The notes below the pieces were generated by a model. It saw nothing but the letters and a program-made list of their open reading frames with translations. It was not told the DNA's origin and did not search any database. Positions 3,179-16,140 of a stretch of 64,000 bases of DNA are shown here, one piece after another (within the stretch, counting starts at the first letter, position 1; each line of letters begins with the position of its first letter). Position numbers and translations under genes: made by a program. Source of the stretch: Sphingomicrobium astaxanthinifaciens (GTDB lineage Bacteria; Pseudomonadota; Alphaproteobacteria; Sphingomonadales; Sphingomonadaceae). The stretch spans positions 62,001-126,000 of the forward strand of contig NZ_JAKNYM010000002.1 in assembly GCF_022865105.1 (NCBI RefSeq). The letters run 5' to 3'.

Positions 3179-4999
3179 CTAGCTCTCATCCCCCATCTTG
3201 AGCGCGGCGATAAAGGCCTCCTGCGGGATGCTCACGTTCCCATATTCGCGCATCTTCGCCTTGCCCTTCTTCTGCTTCTCGAGGAGCTTGCGTTTGCGCG
3301 TGGCGTCGCCGCCATAGCATTTGGCGGTCACGTCCTTGCGCATCGCGCTGATCGTCTCGCGGGCGATGATCTTGCCGCCGATCGCGGCCTGCACCGGGAT
3401 CTTGAACAGGTGCCTCGGGATGAGGTCCTTTAAGCGCTCGCACATGCCGCGCCCGCGCGCCTCGGCGGTCGAGCGGTGGACGATCATGCTGAGCGCGTCG
3501 ACCGGCTCCTCGTTGACGAGGATGCTCATCTTCACGAGGTCGCCCTCGCGATTGCCGATCTGCTCGTAATCGAAGCTCGCATAGCCCTGGCTGATCGACT
3601 TCAGCCGGTCGTAGAAATCGAACACCACTTCGTTCAAGGGCAGTTCGTAGACCACCTGCGCGCGCCCGCCCACGTAAGTCAGGTCCTTCTGGATCCCGCG
3701 CCGGTCCTGGCACAGCTTGAGGATGCCGCCGAGATATTCGTCGGGGGTATAGATGGTCGCCTTGATCCACGGCTCCTCGATGCTCTCGATCCGGTTCACG
3801 TCGGGATAGTCCGCCGGATTGTGCAGCTCGATCGTCTGCGCATCCTCGGTCTTCGAGTGCGACAGGTGCATCGTGTAGACGACGCTCGGCGCGGTGGTGA
3901 TGAGGTCGAGGTCATACTCGCGCGTCAGCCGCTCCTGGATGATCTCGAGGTGGAGGAGCCCGAGGAACCCGCAGCGGAAGCCGAACCCCAGCGCCGCCGA
4001 GGTTTCCATCTCGAAGCTGAAGCTCGCATCGTTGAGCCGCAGCTTGTGCAGGCTCTCGCGCAATTTCTCGAAGTCCGCCGCATCGACGGGGAAGAGCCCG
4101 CAGAACACCACCGGCTGCACTTCCTTGAACCCCGGCAGCGGCTTGTCGGTCGGGTTCTTGACCGTGGTGATCGTGTCGCCGACCGCGGTCTGGCTGACTT
4201 CCTTGATCTGCGCGGTGATGAAGCCGATCTCGCCCGCGCTCAATTCCTCGAGCTCGACCCGCTTGGGGGTGAAGCAGCCGACGCGGTCGATCAGGTGCTC
4301 GGTCCCCGCCTGCATGAACTTGATCTTCTGCCCGCGCTTCAAGCTGCCTTCCATCACGCGCACGAGGATGACGACCCCGAGATAGGGGTCGTACCAGCTG
4401 TCGACGAGCATCGCCTTCAAGGGCGCGTCGCGGTCGCCCTTGGGGTGCGGGATCTTGTCGACGATCGCCTGCAGGATGGCCTCGATGCCGATCCCCGACT
4501 TGGCGCTCGCCTCGACCGCGTCCGCGCTGTCGAGCCCGATCACTTCCTCGATCTCGAGCTTGACCTTCTCGGGGTCGGCGGCGGGCAGGTCGATCTTGTT
4601 GATCACCGGCACGATCTCATGGTCATGCTCGATCGACTGGTAAACGTTGGCGAGCGTCTGCGCCTCGACGCCCTGCGCGGCGTCGACCACCAGCAGCGCG
4701 CCTTCGCAGGCGGCGAGACTGCGCGAGACTTCATAGGCGAAGTCGACGTGCCCGGGCGTGTCCATGAGGTTGAGCTCATAGGTCTCGCCGTCGGCGGCCT
4801 GCCAGTTGAGGCGCACCGTCTGGCTCTTGATGGTGATCCCGCGCTCCTGCTCGATCTCCATATTGTCGAGCACCTGCTGCTTCATCTCGCGCTCGGAGAG
4901 GCCCCCCGTCACCTGGATGAGCCGGTCGGCAAGCGTCGACTTGCCATGGTCGATATGCGCGATGATGCTGAAATTGCGGATTTTTTCGAGGTCGGTCAT
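3179..4999 (-). CDS. lepA: Elongation factor 4 (LepA), ribosome back-translocase GTPase
   Basis: LepA is a 606-residue translational GTPase that binds stalled or mistranslocated ribosomes and affects initiation and translocation. GTPase motifs are plain: AHIDHGKST (G1, about residues 14-22), DTPGHVDF (G3) and NKIDLP (G4). The EF-G-like domains and the LepA-specific C-terminal domain follow, with the conserved stretch around [17 protein letters not shown]. Length is normal for the family. The ATG giving [21 protein letters not shown] is preferred; a TTG four codons earlier is possible but unlike relatives. It is monocistronic here, divergent from the DUF1206 gene. Confidence 0.97.
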
Positions 5000-6047: not shown

Positions 6048-8888
6048 ATGGCCCGCCTTCCCAAGACCGCGCTGCTGCTCGCGAGCAGCTCGCTCCTCGC
6101 CGCCTGCACCGCGACCGCCCAGCCGCTGGCGAGCGCCGCCCCCGCCCCGGCGGCGAGTGCCGAGGCCGACCCGATCGCCGAGCTCGTCGAACAGGTCGCG
6201 ATCCCGCACCAGAGCTTCCAGCTCGACAACGGCCTCACCGTCCTCGTCCACGAGGATCGCAAGGCCCCGATCGTGGCGGTGAGCGTGTGGTACAACGTCG
6301 GCTCGAAGGACGAGCCCGAAGGCAAGACCGGCTTTGCCCACCTGTTCGAGCACCTCATGTTCAACGGCTCGGAAAACCTGCCCGGTGACTATTTCGAATG
6401 GACCGAGCAGATCGGCGCCACTGCCTTGAACGGCACCACCTGGTTCGACCGCACCAACTATTTCCAGAACGTGCCGACGGGCGCGCTCGAACGCGCGCTG
6501 TTCATGGAAAGCGACCGCATGGGCTACCTGCTCGGCGCGGTGACGCAGGAAAAGCTCACCAACCAGATCGGGGTCGTCCAGAACGAGAAGCGGCAGGGCG
6601 ACAACCAGCCCGGCGGGCTGGTCTATTACGAGGTCCTGAAAGCGCTCTTCCCCGAGGGCCATCCCTATCGCCACTCGACGATCGGCTCGATGGCCGACCT
6701 GTCCTCGGCGACGATGGGCGACGTGCAACAGTGGTTCATCGACAAATATGGCCCCAACAATGCCGTGCTCGTGCTGGCCGGCGACATCGACGCCGAGACC
6801 GCGCGCCCGCTGGTCGAGAAATATTTCGGGCAGATCGAACGCGGCCCGGTCAACACCCCCGCCGAGGCCGAGGTGCCCACGCTCGAGACGCCCAAGCGCA
6901 TCGTCATGCGCGACCGCGTCCCCAACACGCGCATCACCAAATATTGGGCGGTGCCGGGGATCGCCAGCGAGGACCGCGAGGCGCTGACCATCGCCGCGCA
7001 GATCCTCGGCGGGCTCGCCTCGAGCCGGGTCGACGAGCAGATCGTCCGCGGCGAGGAAATCGCCAATTTCGCCTTCGCGGGCTATTCGCCCTTCCACCGT
7101 GTCGGCACCTTCCAACTGGGCGGCGAGGTGAAGAGCGGGATCGAGGCCAATGTCCTCGAAAGCCGGCTCCAGACCATCCTCACCGAGTTCGTGCTCGAGG
7201 GGCCGAGCGAGGAAGAGGTCGACCGCGCGGTCACCAACCTGCTCGCCGGGCAGGTTAAGGGGCTCGAACAGGTCGGCGGCTTCGGCGGCAAGGCCAATGC
7301 GCTGGCCGAGGGGCTGCTCTACAACGGCGACAGCAACGAATATGCCGAGGAACTCGCCAATTATGCCGCGCTGACCCCCGAGGACGTGCGCGCCGCCGCG
7401 GCGCGCTGGCTCGCGCGCCCCTCGGTCACCATCACGCTCGCACCGGGCGAGCGCGCCCCCTATGAGGAAGCCACCGCGCCCGCCGAAAGCGGCGGTCTCG
7501 AGGCGCGCGATTACACCCCGACGAAGCGCGAACTGCCCCCGATCGGGCAGACCGCGGCGCTCGACTTCCCCGACGTCAGCACCACCACGCTGTCGAACGG
7601 CGCGACCGTCTATTATGCGCAGCGCGACACCGTGCCGGTGACCAGCATCGTCGTCGAATTCGACGCCGGTCGCGCCGCCGATGCGAGCGACCAGCGGGGC
7701 CTGTCGTCGATGGTCGTGAGCCTGCTCGAGGAAGGCGCCGGCGGCATGGACGCGCAGTCGCTGGCCGAAGCGCAGGAATCGCTCGGCGCGTCGATCGCCT
7801 TCGGCAACGGGCTCGACGAGACCACCGCCAACATGAGCACCCTGTCGGCCAACCTAGCGCCCAGCCTCGACCTGTTCGGGACCATGCTGCGCGCTCCCGA
7901 CTTCGAGGCCGGCGCGATCGAGCGCGTGCGCAGCCAGACGCTCGCCGCGCGCGCGCGCTCGCTGTCGAGCCCCAACGGGCTGATCGCCGACACGCTGCCG
8001 CTCATCATCTACGGGGAGGACGACCCCTATGGTGGCAGCCCGTTCGGGAGCGTCGCCGCGATCGAGGCGATCGACCGCGACGACCTCGTGGCCTTCCACG
8101 CCGCCTATCTGCGCCCCGACAACATGGAGATCTATGTCGTTTCGGACCTCGCGCTCGACGAGGTGACCGCGGCGCTCGAGGCCGAACTGGGCGATTGGCA
8201 GCCCCCCGCCACCCCGCGCGGCGAGAAGGCGTTCCCCGATCGGCCGACGCGTCCCGACCAGCCGAGCTACATCCTCGTCGATCGCCCGGACTCGCCGCAG
8301 TCGATCATCGCCGCGGCGCAGCTCCTGCCGGTCGACCCGACCGCCGACCTCGTCGACGTCAACGCCGCCAACGAGGCGCTCGGCGGCAGCTTCCTGAGCC
8401 GCATCAACATGGACCTGCGCGAGACCAAGGGCTGGTCCTACGGCGTGCGCGGCCGGGTGCAGCGCAACGATGCCGACGTGAGCTACCTGTTCACCGCGCC
8501 GGTCCAGGCCGATCGCACCGCCGATAGCATCCTCGCGCTGCAGCAACAGACGCGGGCCTTCCTCGGCGAGGACGGCGTGCGCGAGGAGGAACTGGTGCGC
8601 ATCGTCAACTCGAACATCGCCTCGCTGCCAGGGCAGTTCGAAACCTCGGCGGCGGTCCTCCAGGGGATCCGCGCCAACGTCGACCTCGGCCGTCCGATGG
8701 ACTATTACGAGACGCTCTCCGAGCGCTATCGCGGGCAGACCCGGACCAGCCTCGACAGTGCCATCCGCGGCATCCTCGACCCCGAGGACTTCCTGTGGGT
8801 GATCGTCGGCGACGCCGCGGTCGTCGGGCCGCAGCTCGATGCCGCCGGGATCGACTATGAGGTGCGCAAGGTCGACGCGGGGCAATAG
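6048..8888 (+). CDS. M16 family (pitrilysin/insulinase-like) zinc peptidase, lipoprotein
   Basis: This 946-residue protein carries two consecutive M16 units (about residues 45-470 and 500-930). The N-terminal unit has the inverted zinc motif HLFEH (about residues 98-102) and a downstream glutamate region, so it is the catalytic half. The second unit lacks the motif, as usual for the structural half that closes the chamber. The N-terminus MARLPKTALLLASSSLLAAC is a lipoprotein signal with a lipobox ending at Cys20, so the enzyme should sit in the envelope and degrade peptides. The ATG at 6048 was chosen because it directly precedes the signal and has a purine-rich site just upstream. It is followed by a strong inverted repeat shared with the purK end. 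Confidence 0.93.
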   Translation: MARLPKTALLLASSSLLAACTATAQPLASAAPAPAASAEADPIAELVEQVAIPHQSFQLDNGLTVLVHEDRKAPIVAVSVWYNVGSKDEPEGKTGFAHLFEHLMFNGSENLPGDYFEWTEQIGATALNGTTWFDRTNYFQNVPTGALERALFMESDRMGYLLGAVTQEKLTNQIGVVQNEKRQGDNQPGGLVYYEVLKALFPEGHPYRHSTIGSMADLSSATMGDVQQWFIDKYGPNNAVLVLAGDIDAETARPLVEKYFGQIERGPVNTPAEAEVPTLETPKRIVMRDRVPNTRITKYWAVPGIASEDREALTIAAQILGGLASSRVDEQIVRGEEIANFAFAGYSPFHRVGTFQLGGEVKSGIEANVLESRLQTILTEFVLEGPSEEEVDRAVTNLLAGQVKGLEQVGGFGGKANALAEGLLYNGDSNEYAEELANYAALTPEDVRAAAARWLARPSVTITLAPGERAPYEEATAPAESGGLEARDYTPTKRELPPIGQTAALDFPDVSTTTLSNGATVYYAQRDTVPVTSIVVEFDAGRAADASDQRGLSSMVVSLLEEGAGGMDAQSLAEAQESLGASIAFGNGLDETTANMSTLSANLAPSLDLFGTMLRAPDFEAGAIERVRSQTLAARARSLSSPNGLIADTLPLIIYGEDDPYGGSPFGSVAAIEAIDRDDLVAFHAAYLRPDNMEIYVVSDLALDEVTAALEAELGDWQPPATPRGEKAFPDRPTRPDQPSYILVDRPDSPQSIIAAAQLLPVDPTADLVDVNAANEALGGSFLSRINMDLRETKGWSYGVRGRVQRNDADVSYLFTAPVQADRTADSILALQQQTRAFLGEDGVREEELVRIVNSNIASLPGQFETSAAVLQGIRANVDLGRPMDYYETLSERYRGQTRTSLDSAIRGILDPEDFLWVIVGDAAVVGPQLDAAGIDYEVRKVDAGQ

Positions 8889-14262: not shown

Positions 14263-14388
14263 ATGAAGATCCGTAACTCGTTGAAATCGCTCAAGTCGCG
14301 CCACCGCGATTGCCGGGTCATCCGCCGTCGCGGCCGGACCTATGTGATCAACAAGACCAACCGTCGCTTCAAGGCGCGCCAGGGCTAA
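14263..14388 (+). CDS. rpmJ: 50S ribosomal protein bL36
   Basis: This 41-residue basic protein is the small 50S protein bL36, which binds 23S rRNA. It begins [19 protein letters not shown] and ends in a lysine/arginine-rich tail (RRFKARQG). It has only one cysteine, so it is the zinc-free form, the usual type in alphaproteobacteria, and lacks the CxxC zinc ribbon of the other type. It is monocistronic, with a promoter candidate before it and a strong intrinsic terminator about 40 bases after the stop. Confidence 0.97.
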
Positions 14389-14477: not shown

Positions 14478-15326
14478 CTAGAGCGGACGCGCGAGGTGCG
14501 CCGCGAGCGCGCGCGCGTGGGTCAGCGCTTCGCCCAGCGCGCGCGGCCGAGAAAAGCGGAAGGTCGCACAGTCGCGCGCCAGCCGCATCGCCTGGCCGAA
14601 GCGGCGGTCGTCGTCGGCCAGTTCCTCGCCGATGGCGGGGCGGAACAGGTTGTCGAGCATGGTCATCGCCGCTTCCTGGCCGCGGATCGGCGCGACCGCG
14701 AAGTCGCCGACATCGATGCGGTAGAGCCGGGTCAGCCGGAACCGCTCCTCCCACGGCGCGCTGCGGTCGAGCGGCAGCTGGTACTTATCGATCGCCGGCG
14801 CGACGCGGGGCAGCCCGTCGAGCGAAATGCCGAGCGCGGCGGCGCCGTCGGGCCCCAGCTTGATGCGCGGGATCCCCGGCCTCACCCAGGCGCCCTGGTC
14901 GTAGAATTCGATCGCCAGCAGGTCATCGCACAGCGGCCGCAGCCCGACCTCGCGCAGGCTCGCCGCGAGCGTCGACTTGCCGACCCCGCTGTCGCCGAGG
15001 AGCGCCGCGGCTTCGCCGTTGCCGATCGCCACCGCATTGGCATGGAGCGTGAGAAACCACCGAGCCAAGCAGCCAGACCCGGATCATCGCCTCGGGGGTC
15101 TCGCGCGGGGCGACGATCTCGACCGCGCGCCCCTCACGCACGCGATAGCGGATCCCGTGCAGCTCGAAGGCGACCGTGCCGTCGGGCTCGAGCCGCCAGT
15201 CGGTCAGCGTGTCAGGGGCAAGCGCGGCATCGCGCCGCAGCGTGATGGTGACGTCGGGCGCGCCGTCGGCGGCGAACAGCTCGGGCAGCGCGAGCGTGCT
15301 GGCAAGGCGCAGCCCTAACGCGCCAT
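14478..15326 (-). pseudogene. HPr-kinase-like (HprK-related) kinase, frameshifted remnant
   Basis: The C-terminal 195 or so residues (15067 down to 14478) form an HprK-like kinase core. This has HANAVAIGNGEAAALLGD, Walker A GDSGVGKST, the acidic LCDDLLAIEF and a PGIPRIKLGP segment. The expected N-terminal domain (GLRLASTLALPELFAADGAP ... EAMIRVWLLG) is present directly upstream, but in another frame. The switch must fall within 15055-15069, so the gene is broken. At the 5' end no start codon exists in the N-terminal frame. An ATG at 15326 is one frame off and meets a stop after three codons, so a second lesion is likely there. Such kinases accompany lasso-peptide gene sets, where relatives modify the precursor peptide. 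A broken B2 gene sits head to head with it. Sequencing error is possible but would need several indels in 1 kb. Confidence 0.75.
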
Positions 15327-15563
15327 CCGCGGCTGGGCGCGGCGATTGCCGTGGAAGACCGAATGTTTCGTGCAGGCGATCGCCGCATGCGCATGCTCGA
15401 GCGGCGCGAGCGCGACGTCGTGCTGCACTACGGGACCCGTCGCGGCGCCGACGGGCTCGAGGCGCATGTCTGGGTGAGTTCGGGCGAGCTGCCGGTGGTC
15501 GGGCATCGCAACGCCGACGAGTTCGTCGAGATCGCGCGCTTTCCGCCCGCCGCGCGCGCCTAG
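15319..15563 (+). pseudogene. Lasso peptide biosynthesis B2 (transglutaminase-like) protein, truncated and frameshifted
   Basis: In frame from 15319 the sequence reads RAIRGWARRLPWKTECFVQ then AIAA, matching the catalytic-cysteine segment of B2 proteases. From 15387 the match continues one frame over as MRMLERRERDVVLHYGTRR ... GLEAHVWVSSG ... EFVEIARFPP, with the catalytic histidine in AHVW. A single missing base near 15385-15387 explains the break. The first 60-70 residues expected of the family are absent: the match starts abruptly beside the kinase remnant. The intact enzyme would cleave the leader of a lasso precursor. No precursor, asparagine-synthetase-like cyclase or PqqD-like protein is seen nearby. 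The stop overlaps the convergent lipoprotein gene (CTAG). Confidence 0.7.
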
Positions 15564-15994
15564 GGCTCGTTCGACCCCGGCTCGACCTCGCCCAGTTGGG
15601 GGGTGTTCTGGCCCTCGCTGTCGGCCCGGCTGATCTCGCACGCGGGCAACCCTTGCTCGGCGACATCGACGCAATTGCGCACCTGCGCCGAATCGTCGGC
15701 GCCGATGAAGATCGCCCAGTCGCGCCCGTCGTCGCAGCTCGCGGTCCACATCATCAAATTCTCATAGTCGGCGACATAGCCCGAGCGCGTGACCCGCTCG
15801 CACCGCAGCCCCGAGGCCCGGATCGCGCGCTTGAGCGCGATGTCGCGATTGACCGGCGACAGCTCGAACATCCGGGTCTGCGCCTCGCTGCGCACCGTGA
15901 TCTCGCTGTCCTCGACCGTGCTGGTCTCGCCGCAACCGACGAGGAGCGCGGCGGCGCCGAGCAGCGGCGCCAGCTGGCGGGCGATCAAGACCAT
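15560..15994 (-). CDS. Small hypothetical lipoprotein
   Basis: This 144-residue protein has a lipoprotein signal (MVLIARQLAPLLGAAALLVGC, lipobox cysteine about residue 21) and should be membrane-anchored on the periplasmic side. The mature part contains three further cysteines (LRCERV, TASCDDG, NCVDV/LPACEI region), probably disulphide-bonded, and ends in an acidic tail. I do not recognise a named family. A GGAGG site precedes the ATG. The start overlaps the end of the 51-residue gene upstream by 10 bases, so the two form a coupled pair. Confidence 0.8.
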   Translation of the reverse strand: MVLIARQLAPLLGAAALLVGCGETSTVEDSEITVRSEAQTRMFELSPVNRDIALKRAIRASGLRCERVTRSGYVADYENLMMWTASCDDGRDWAIFIGADDSAQVRNCVDVAEQGLPACEISRADSEGQNTPQLGEVEPGSNEP

Positions 15995-16140
15995 TCCTCC
16001 GCCTCCGGCGGATGCTCGCTTTCCTGCTCATAGTCCTCGGCCAGCGTGTTGAGCGCGCGGCGGATGACCGGGTCGGCGCTGGTCTGGGCCATGGTCCGAA
16101 GCTCGGACGGGGAAAGGCGGGGCTTTTCGTCCATCTCCAT
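15985..16140 (-). CDS. Small hypothetical protein, 51 residues
   Basis: A short open frame encodes a 51-residue acidic, soluble protein beginning MEMDEKPRLSPSELRTMAQ and continuing DPVIRRALNTLAEDYEQESE. The central DPxIRRxLxxLAxxYE pattern looks like one amphipathic helix. It resembles small uncharacterised proteins common in sphingomonads, but that is from memory only. It overlaps the lipoprotein start by 10 bases, which supports real translation. The function is unknown. Confidence 0.65.
   Translation of the reverse strand: MEMDEKPRLSPSELRTMAQTSADPVIRRALNTLAEDYEQESEHPPEAEEWS

Follow-up and report, generated by a model that had tools for sequence, protein, structure and literature searches.

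Based on comparison with the same site in related genomes, we propose with high confidence that positions 14478-15563 of the window (the whole 64,000-nucleotide stretch of Sphingomicrobium astaxanthinifaciens DNA analyzed here) hold what remains of a lasso-type RiPP cluster that included a kinase and was inherited vertically, and which was dismantled by a deletion of ~4.34-4.38 kb together with a 26-base and a one-base deletion. Eight species of the window's clade carry the whole cluster at this site with identical gene order and orientation, among them its two nearest sister species (G002 and G058), whose kinases are about 80% identical to that of the window. The remnant itself is an ordinary, well-explained decayed cluster; the relatives' whole clusters are slightly unusual through their leaders with Met at position -2.

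Two broken genes between rpmJ and a lipoprotein-like gene

The site comprises the following features (L033-L040 are loci with the whole cluster in relatives):

14263..14388, plus strand: rpmJ (ribosomal protein L36), the left flank; 41 aa, 100% identical in L033, L034 and L036
14478..15058, minus strand: kinase pseudogene, C-terminal piece, with the P-loop GDSGVGKS, the histidine of HAN and CDD readable; 81% (G002) and 78% (G058) identical to the sisters' kinases
15058..15059, place uncertain by some bases, minus strand: frame-shifting 26-base deletion in the kinase, from DNA alignment to L033 and L034
15059..15327 (about 15325), minus strand: kinase pseudogene, N-terminal piece; native start lost; 75% identical to the L033 kinase
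15316..15327, no strand: junction of the ~4.4 kb deletion, from comparison with both sides in L033-L036
15319..15385, plus strand: B2 pseudogene, N-terminal piece GWARRLPWKTECFVQAIAA; 96% identical to residues 66-88 of the L033 B2; 17.4 bits against PF13471
15386..15563, plus strand: B2 pseudogene, C-terminal piece after a one-base deletion; matches NF033537 and PF13471
15560..15994, minus strand: lipoprotein-like gene, the right flank; present in 67 of 71 genomes of the genus, adjoining B2 in L033-L040

The identities to the sisters' genes bear out the reading of the first-pass annotation that two recognizable but broken genes lie here, and at the sequence level chance is excluded as the source of the resemblance to kinase and B2. 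The C-terminal kinase piece is an open frame that covers the last two thirds of an HprK-like kinase; it has 196 residues from a TTG first codon, and the N-terminal ~95 residues are absent. The N-terminal piece lies in a different frame and matches residues 4-95 of the L033 kinase (at 15055-15324); a frame switch had been placed within 15055-15069, and the frame indeed changes at 15058/15059. DNA alignment shows 26 bases absent at this lesion, as one gap of 26 against L033 and as two gaps of 11 and 15 bases against L034. The earlier suggestion of an 11-base deletion between direct repeats is unsupported, given both the number of bases gone and the absence of such a repeat from L033 and L034. 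The absence of a usable in-frame start had also been claimed: the native start region is indeed gone from the window, though the N-terminal frame stays open, antisense through B2, up to an ATG at 15666 that is foreign to the gene.

Against TIGR04352 (HprK_rel_A) the C-terminal kinase piece scores 27.6 bits, below the cut-off of 200 (the L033 sister scores 34.5), and against Hpr_kinase_C 15.8 bits, below the cut-off of 33.3; the N-terminal piece has no family match in the NCBIfam-type or Pfam model libraries searched. A conserved His, glycines, Lys-Ser and Asp-Asp mark lasso precursor kinases, according to the motif given in PMC10368454, and the window piece displays these as HANAVA, GDSGVGKS and CDD. 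Across nine relatives' kinases the His, Gly, Lys, Ser and both Asp residues are invariant. When a profile of these nine was compared with solved structures, only weak matches along the P-loop were recovered, namely to an ABC protein (2.1e-5), PEP carboxykinase (3.4e-5) and the HPr(Ser) kinase 3tqf (8e-5). Nine plasmid records matched only at rpmJ and along a short P-loop stretch.

The B2 gene starts abruptly at about 15319, changes frame, and ends with a stop at 15563 that overlaps the 3' end of the convergent lipoprotein-like gene, itself lacking any Pfam match. The sister's frame has 146 residues, and the window's gene aligns with it from residue 66 onward, so that 60-odd residues are gone, in agreement with the annotated loss of the first 60-70; likewise, the frame shift annotated at 15385-15387 corresponds to a single base absent at about 15385/15386 in DNA alignment to L033 and L034. 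The Cys (codon at 15364-15366, of catalytic type) lies in the N-terminal piece and the His in the C-terminal piece; we take these two to be the active-site residues, and as the frames differ, no single-frame active site is present. The C-terminal piece matches NF033537 at 8.1e-7 with 29.5 bits, under the cut-off of 33 (L033 reaches 68.1), and PF13471 with 26.9 bits at a cut-off of 26; the short N-terminal piece falls under the latter cut-off. Beside the right flank, an ORF of ~50 codons (MDEKPRLSPSELRTMAQTSADP...) occupies 15985-16140 of the window on the minus strand, its stop overlapping the start of the lipoprotein-like gene; L033 and L034 conserve this reading.

The whole cluster in relatives and the large deletion

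The eight whole-cluster members of the clade are G002, G058, G055, G012, G043, G034, G051 and G017 (loci L033-L040). In each, rpmJ adjoins a kinase gene that reads in the opposite direction, followed by forward genes for B1 (PqqD), an ABC transporter, one or two precursor-like ORFs, an AsnB-like cyclase and B2, and then by the lipoprotein-like gene in reverse orientation. Stop-free matches in one frame were obtained for 39 of 40 genes in these loci, the exception being the L035 PqqD match, with one stop near its start that is perhaps upstream of the true start. The L034 PqqD scores 64.4 against PF05402 (cut-off 23.4) and the L033 AsnB 45.3 against PF00733 (cut-off 21). The relatives' proteins tested did not reach the cut-offs of the NCBIfam lasso-specific PqqD and cyclase models or of TIGR04352, and the label "lasso-type" is therefore based on B2, on the set of genes present and on the precursor-like ORFs. 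The comparison of the locus in related genomes, where kinase, PqqD, ABC protein, precursor ORF(s), AsnB-like protein and B2 are found together, supports the earlier view that kinase and B2 belonged to one lasso-type cluster.

Relative to these clusters, the window lacks 4,381 bases versus L033 and 4,339 versus L034 between the first kinase codons and the middle of B2; what was spared are the last B2 codons and the kinase end beside rpmJ, so that the two outermost genes are kept in their native orientation. The 5' ends had been described as abutting at 15315-15330, and the junction does fall there. Around it, GCGCC(AT) is compatible with the relatives' sequence on the kinase flank as well as on the B2 flank, so a short microhomology at the junction is likely. 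A deletion or an inversion had been offered as the cause: the deletion stands, supported by the bases missing relative to the two nearest relatives, and the inversion falls, since kinase and B2 have the same relative orientation in the whole clusters, whose kinase and PqqD genes point away from each other to begin with. A loss of this size is not explicable as a base-calling error.

We posit that the ancestral site carried the same arrangement as the relatives, from rpmJ through kinase, B1, ABC transporter, precursor(s), cyclase and B2 to the lipoprotein-like gene, and that the large deletion took B1, the transporter, the precursor(s) and the cyclase, leaving the outer genes head to head. We infer that the ~4.34-4.38 kb went in one event; the junction microhomology suggests that illegitimate recombination may have been responsible. 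The 26-base and one-base deletions, seen against both nearest relatives, also broke the frames of kinase and B2. Homology predicts the following roles for the whole cluster: the kinase would act on the precursor by phosphorylation (a terminal Ser is present in 11 of 13 candidates), B1 and B2 would cleave off the leader, ring closure would fall to the AsnB-like enzyme, and the ABC protein would carry the product out of the cell.

The window site retains no precursor, B1, cyclase or transporter and so falls short of the full kinase-bearing lasso gene set. A second lasso system was sought in the genome with PF13471, NF033537 and PqqD, and none was found: PF13471 matches nowhere outside the remnant, NF033537 gives no match (missing even the remnant), and PqqD gives none. 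As the site is without precursor, B1 and cyclase, the Cys and His of B2 lie in different frames, and these searches revealed no other B1 or B2, the pathway cannot work. The genome does contain four Asn_synthase matches and a second, weak kinase match (E 4.7e-4).

Candidate precursors and known kinase-bearing systems

From 33 small ORFs we picked by eye, on a W..P motif, 13 candidate precursors, located as follows:

L033 5680-6072
L034 6114-6520
L035 5279-5685
L036 5345-5740
L037 11881-12018
L038 11160-11285
L039 11163-11291
L040 6954-7079
L075 5629-5754

Lasso leaders usually carry Thr at -2. PMC10368454 gives a leader register of Tyr at -17, Pro at -14 and Leu at -12, which we infer to hold for the candidates too. 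In this register, Trp and Met would replace Tyr and Thr at -17 and -2, respectively, in 12 of the 13; the exception, L036 5345-5533, which was counted among the 13 and omitted from the precursor alignment, has Asn at -2 and ends in Val. Glu would be core residue 7 in 11 candidates, predicting a seven-residue ring, with Glu6 and Asp9 in the other two (L033 5680-5814 and L036 5345-5533). A scan of 116 loci, with -2 restricted to T, I, V, M or L, yielded seven precursors in the genus, all with Met, and ten elsewhere (seven Thr, two Leu, one Ile), some perhaps by chance; it found none in the genus's covered clusters away from the rpmJ site. Among the matches listed from open-licence literature (titles and abstract openings), neither such a remnant nor a Met(-2) leader was described. 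If confirmed, Met(-2) leaders would broaden the known substrate range of B1/B2.

The study behind the Pade, Thco and Syan kinase-bearing lasso clusters is reportedly that of Zhu et al. 2016. PMC8498205 and PMC10368454 describe these clusters as paeninodin (Pade), Thco and, from Sphingobium yanoikuyae, Syan, and PMC8498205 has lasso kinases of the paeninodin kind phosphorylating a C-terminal Ser. Like them, the relatives' clusters combine lasso genes with an HPr-kinase homolog, split B1/B2 and a transporter, and their candidates mostly end in Ser; they differ in their leaders, with Trp(-17) and Met(-2) in 12 of 13 candidates, and in a kinase divergent from the remaining genes, and the window differs in holding two broken genes only. 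The bsf cluster of Bradymonas sediminis, as presented in PMC10368454, has an Ile(-2) leader with a kinase and B1/B2; its precursor BsfA ends in Asp, BsfK acts on Ser3 and the ring closes at Asp8, and Ile/Val(-2) is reported there for Sphingomonadales too. Shared with bsf are the kinase plus B1/B2 and a hydrophobic residue replacing Thr at -2, in contrast to which the relatives' candidates have Met rather than Ile/Val and, each in 11 of 13, a predicted seven-residue ring and a terminal Ser.

Repeated loss, its age and alternative readings

The genus set consisted of 71 genomes, the window's own (2.24 Mb) and 70 others, and the site was examined in 48 of them (the window and 47 loci). All five genes occur at nine sites (L033-L040 and L075, the latter with a single stop in its ABC match); at one further site (L078) the cluster runs off the contig end. 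Three sites hold remnants, namely the window, L045 (G001) and L042 (G018); 33 are short and empty, with no cluster trace at E 0.01; and two (L076 and L077) have B2 beside the lipoprotein-like gene, with rpmJ absent from the stretch examined. In G001 (L045 about 6437-6909), comparison with the close sister G034 shows a clean deletion of ~4.47 kb that brings the 3' pieces of kinase and B2 together in the same manner as in the window, and in G018 (L042 about 3383-3568) only ~60 C-terminal kinase residues are left.

In a 46-tip tree of neighboring genes, from which L076 and L077 were left out as too short, the window, G001 and G018 fall within one 11-member clade (bipartition support 100), the other eight members of which hold the whole cluster. 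Each remnant pairs with its own whole-cluster sister (window with G002, support 98; G001 with G034, 100; G018 with G017, 86), and the three losses are therefore best read as separate events. Among kinases, the closest neighbor of the window's piece is that of G002 (support 96), with that of G058 next; this matches the species tree, and thus the cluster was inherited vertically rather than gained as a fragment. The kinase tree drew on part of the matches, which existed in 41 of 61 genomes, and in it ten kinases of the site form one group (support 100) against 19 from elsewhere in the genus and 11 from outside. A gene loss is thereby documented at a syntenic site where some relatives keep the whole cluster and others show their own separate decay, and the clade offers a natural comparison, eight whole against three decayed, on the use of a kinase-modified lasso peptide. 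We give about even weight to the wider reading that the site's clusters constitute a small kinase-modified lasso family, with its Met(-2), Trp(-17) and mostly Glu7-ring precursors, destroyed at least three separate times in this 11-species clade with a kinase piece left by rpmJ each time, and that the product probably brings a benefit only under certain conditions and is readily lost.

As to the age of the loss, relaxed selection was tried as a proof and was not seen: across the three surviving pieces, codon positions 1+2 carry 37 of the window-specific changes and position 3 carries 53, against 84 and 118 in the two whole-cluster sisters (Fisher p = 1), the 95% interval of 37/90 being a wide 0.31-0.52. 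Given this absence, either most of the divergence probably predates inactivation or the small indels are errors; the loss is probably recent, though sequencing errors could account for the two small indels, as opposed to the 4.4 kb loss. The unrelaxed pattern is also compatible with continued use of the 196-residue kinase piece.

These possibilities bear on how the remnant should be explained. It is rather unlikely that the large deletion is real and the small indels are sequencing or assembly errors, which would leave the kinase and B2 pieces truncated with their frames intact; the unrelaxed pieces and the single-base size of the B2 indel agree with such errors, but 26 bases are atypical for a base-calling error and are absent relative to both relatives, and the pathway would not be restored, as the site has lost B1, precursor and cyclase in any case. 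That the kinase piece survives in a new role, for instance as a truncated ATP-binding protein, we regard as most improbable: it is open from its TTG, keeps the P-loop, His and Asp-Asp, and has evolved like its orthologs in whole clusters, but the N-terminal ~95 residues are missing, G001 and G018 retain roughly the last 60-65 kinase residues with no kept function seen, and recent loss explains the pattern equally well. The notion that kinase and B2 are an original minimal pair and no remnant at all, for which the head-to-head layout alone speaks, deserves practically no credence, refuted as it is by the nearest relatives, which carry the whole cluster at the site, and by the truncation or frame shift of both genes.

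Two further observations concern other parts of the genus. In G066 (L077 9719-10029) the B2 beside the lipoprotein-like gene is in two pieces in different frames and is probably, judging by its sequence, a fourth decaying copy. L075 (G045) and L078 (G003) hold a site-type kinase cluster at the rpmJ site in another part of the species tree, adjoining G039, whose site is empty; this placement could reflect transfer into the same site or old inheritance with repeated loss.
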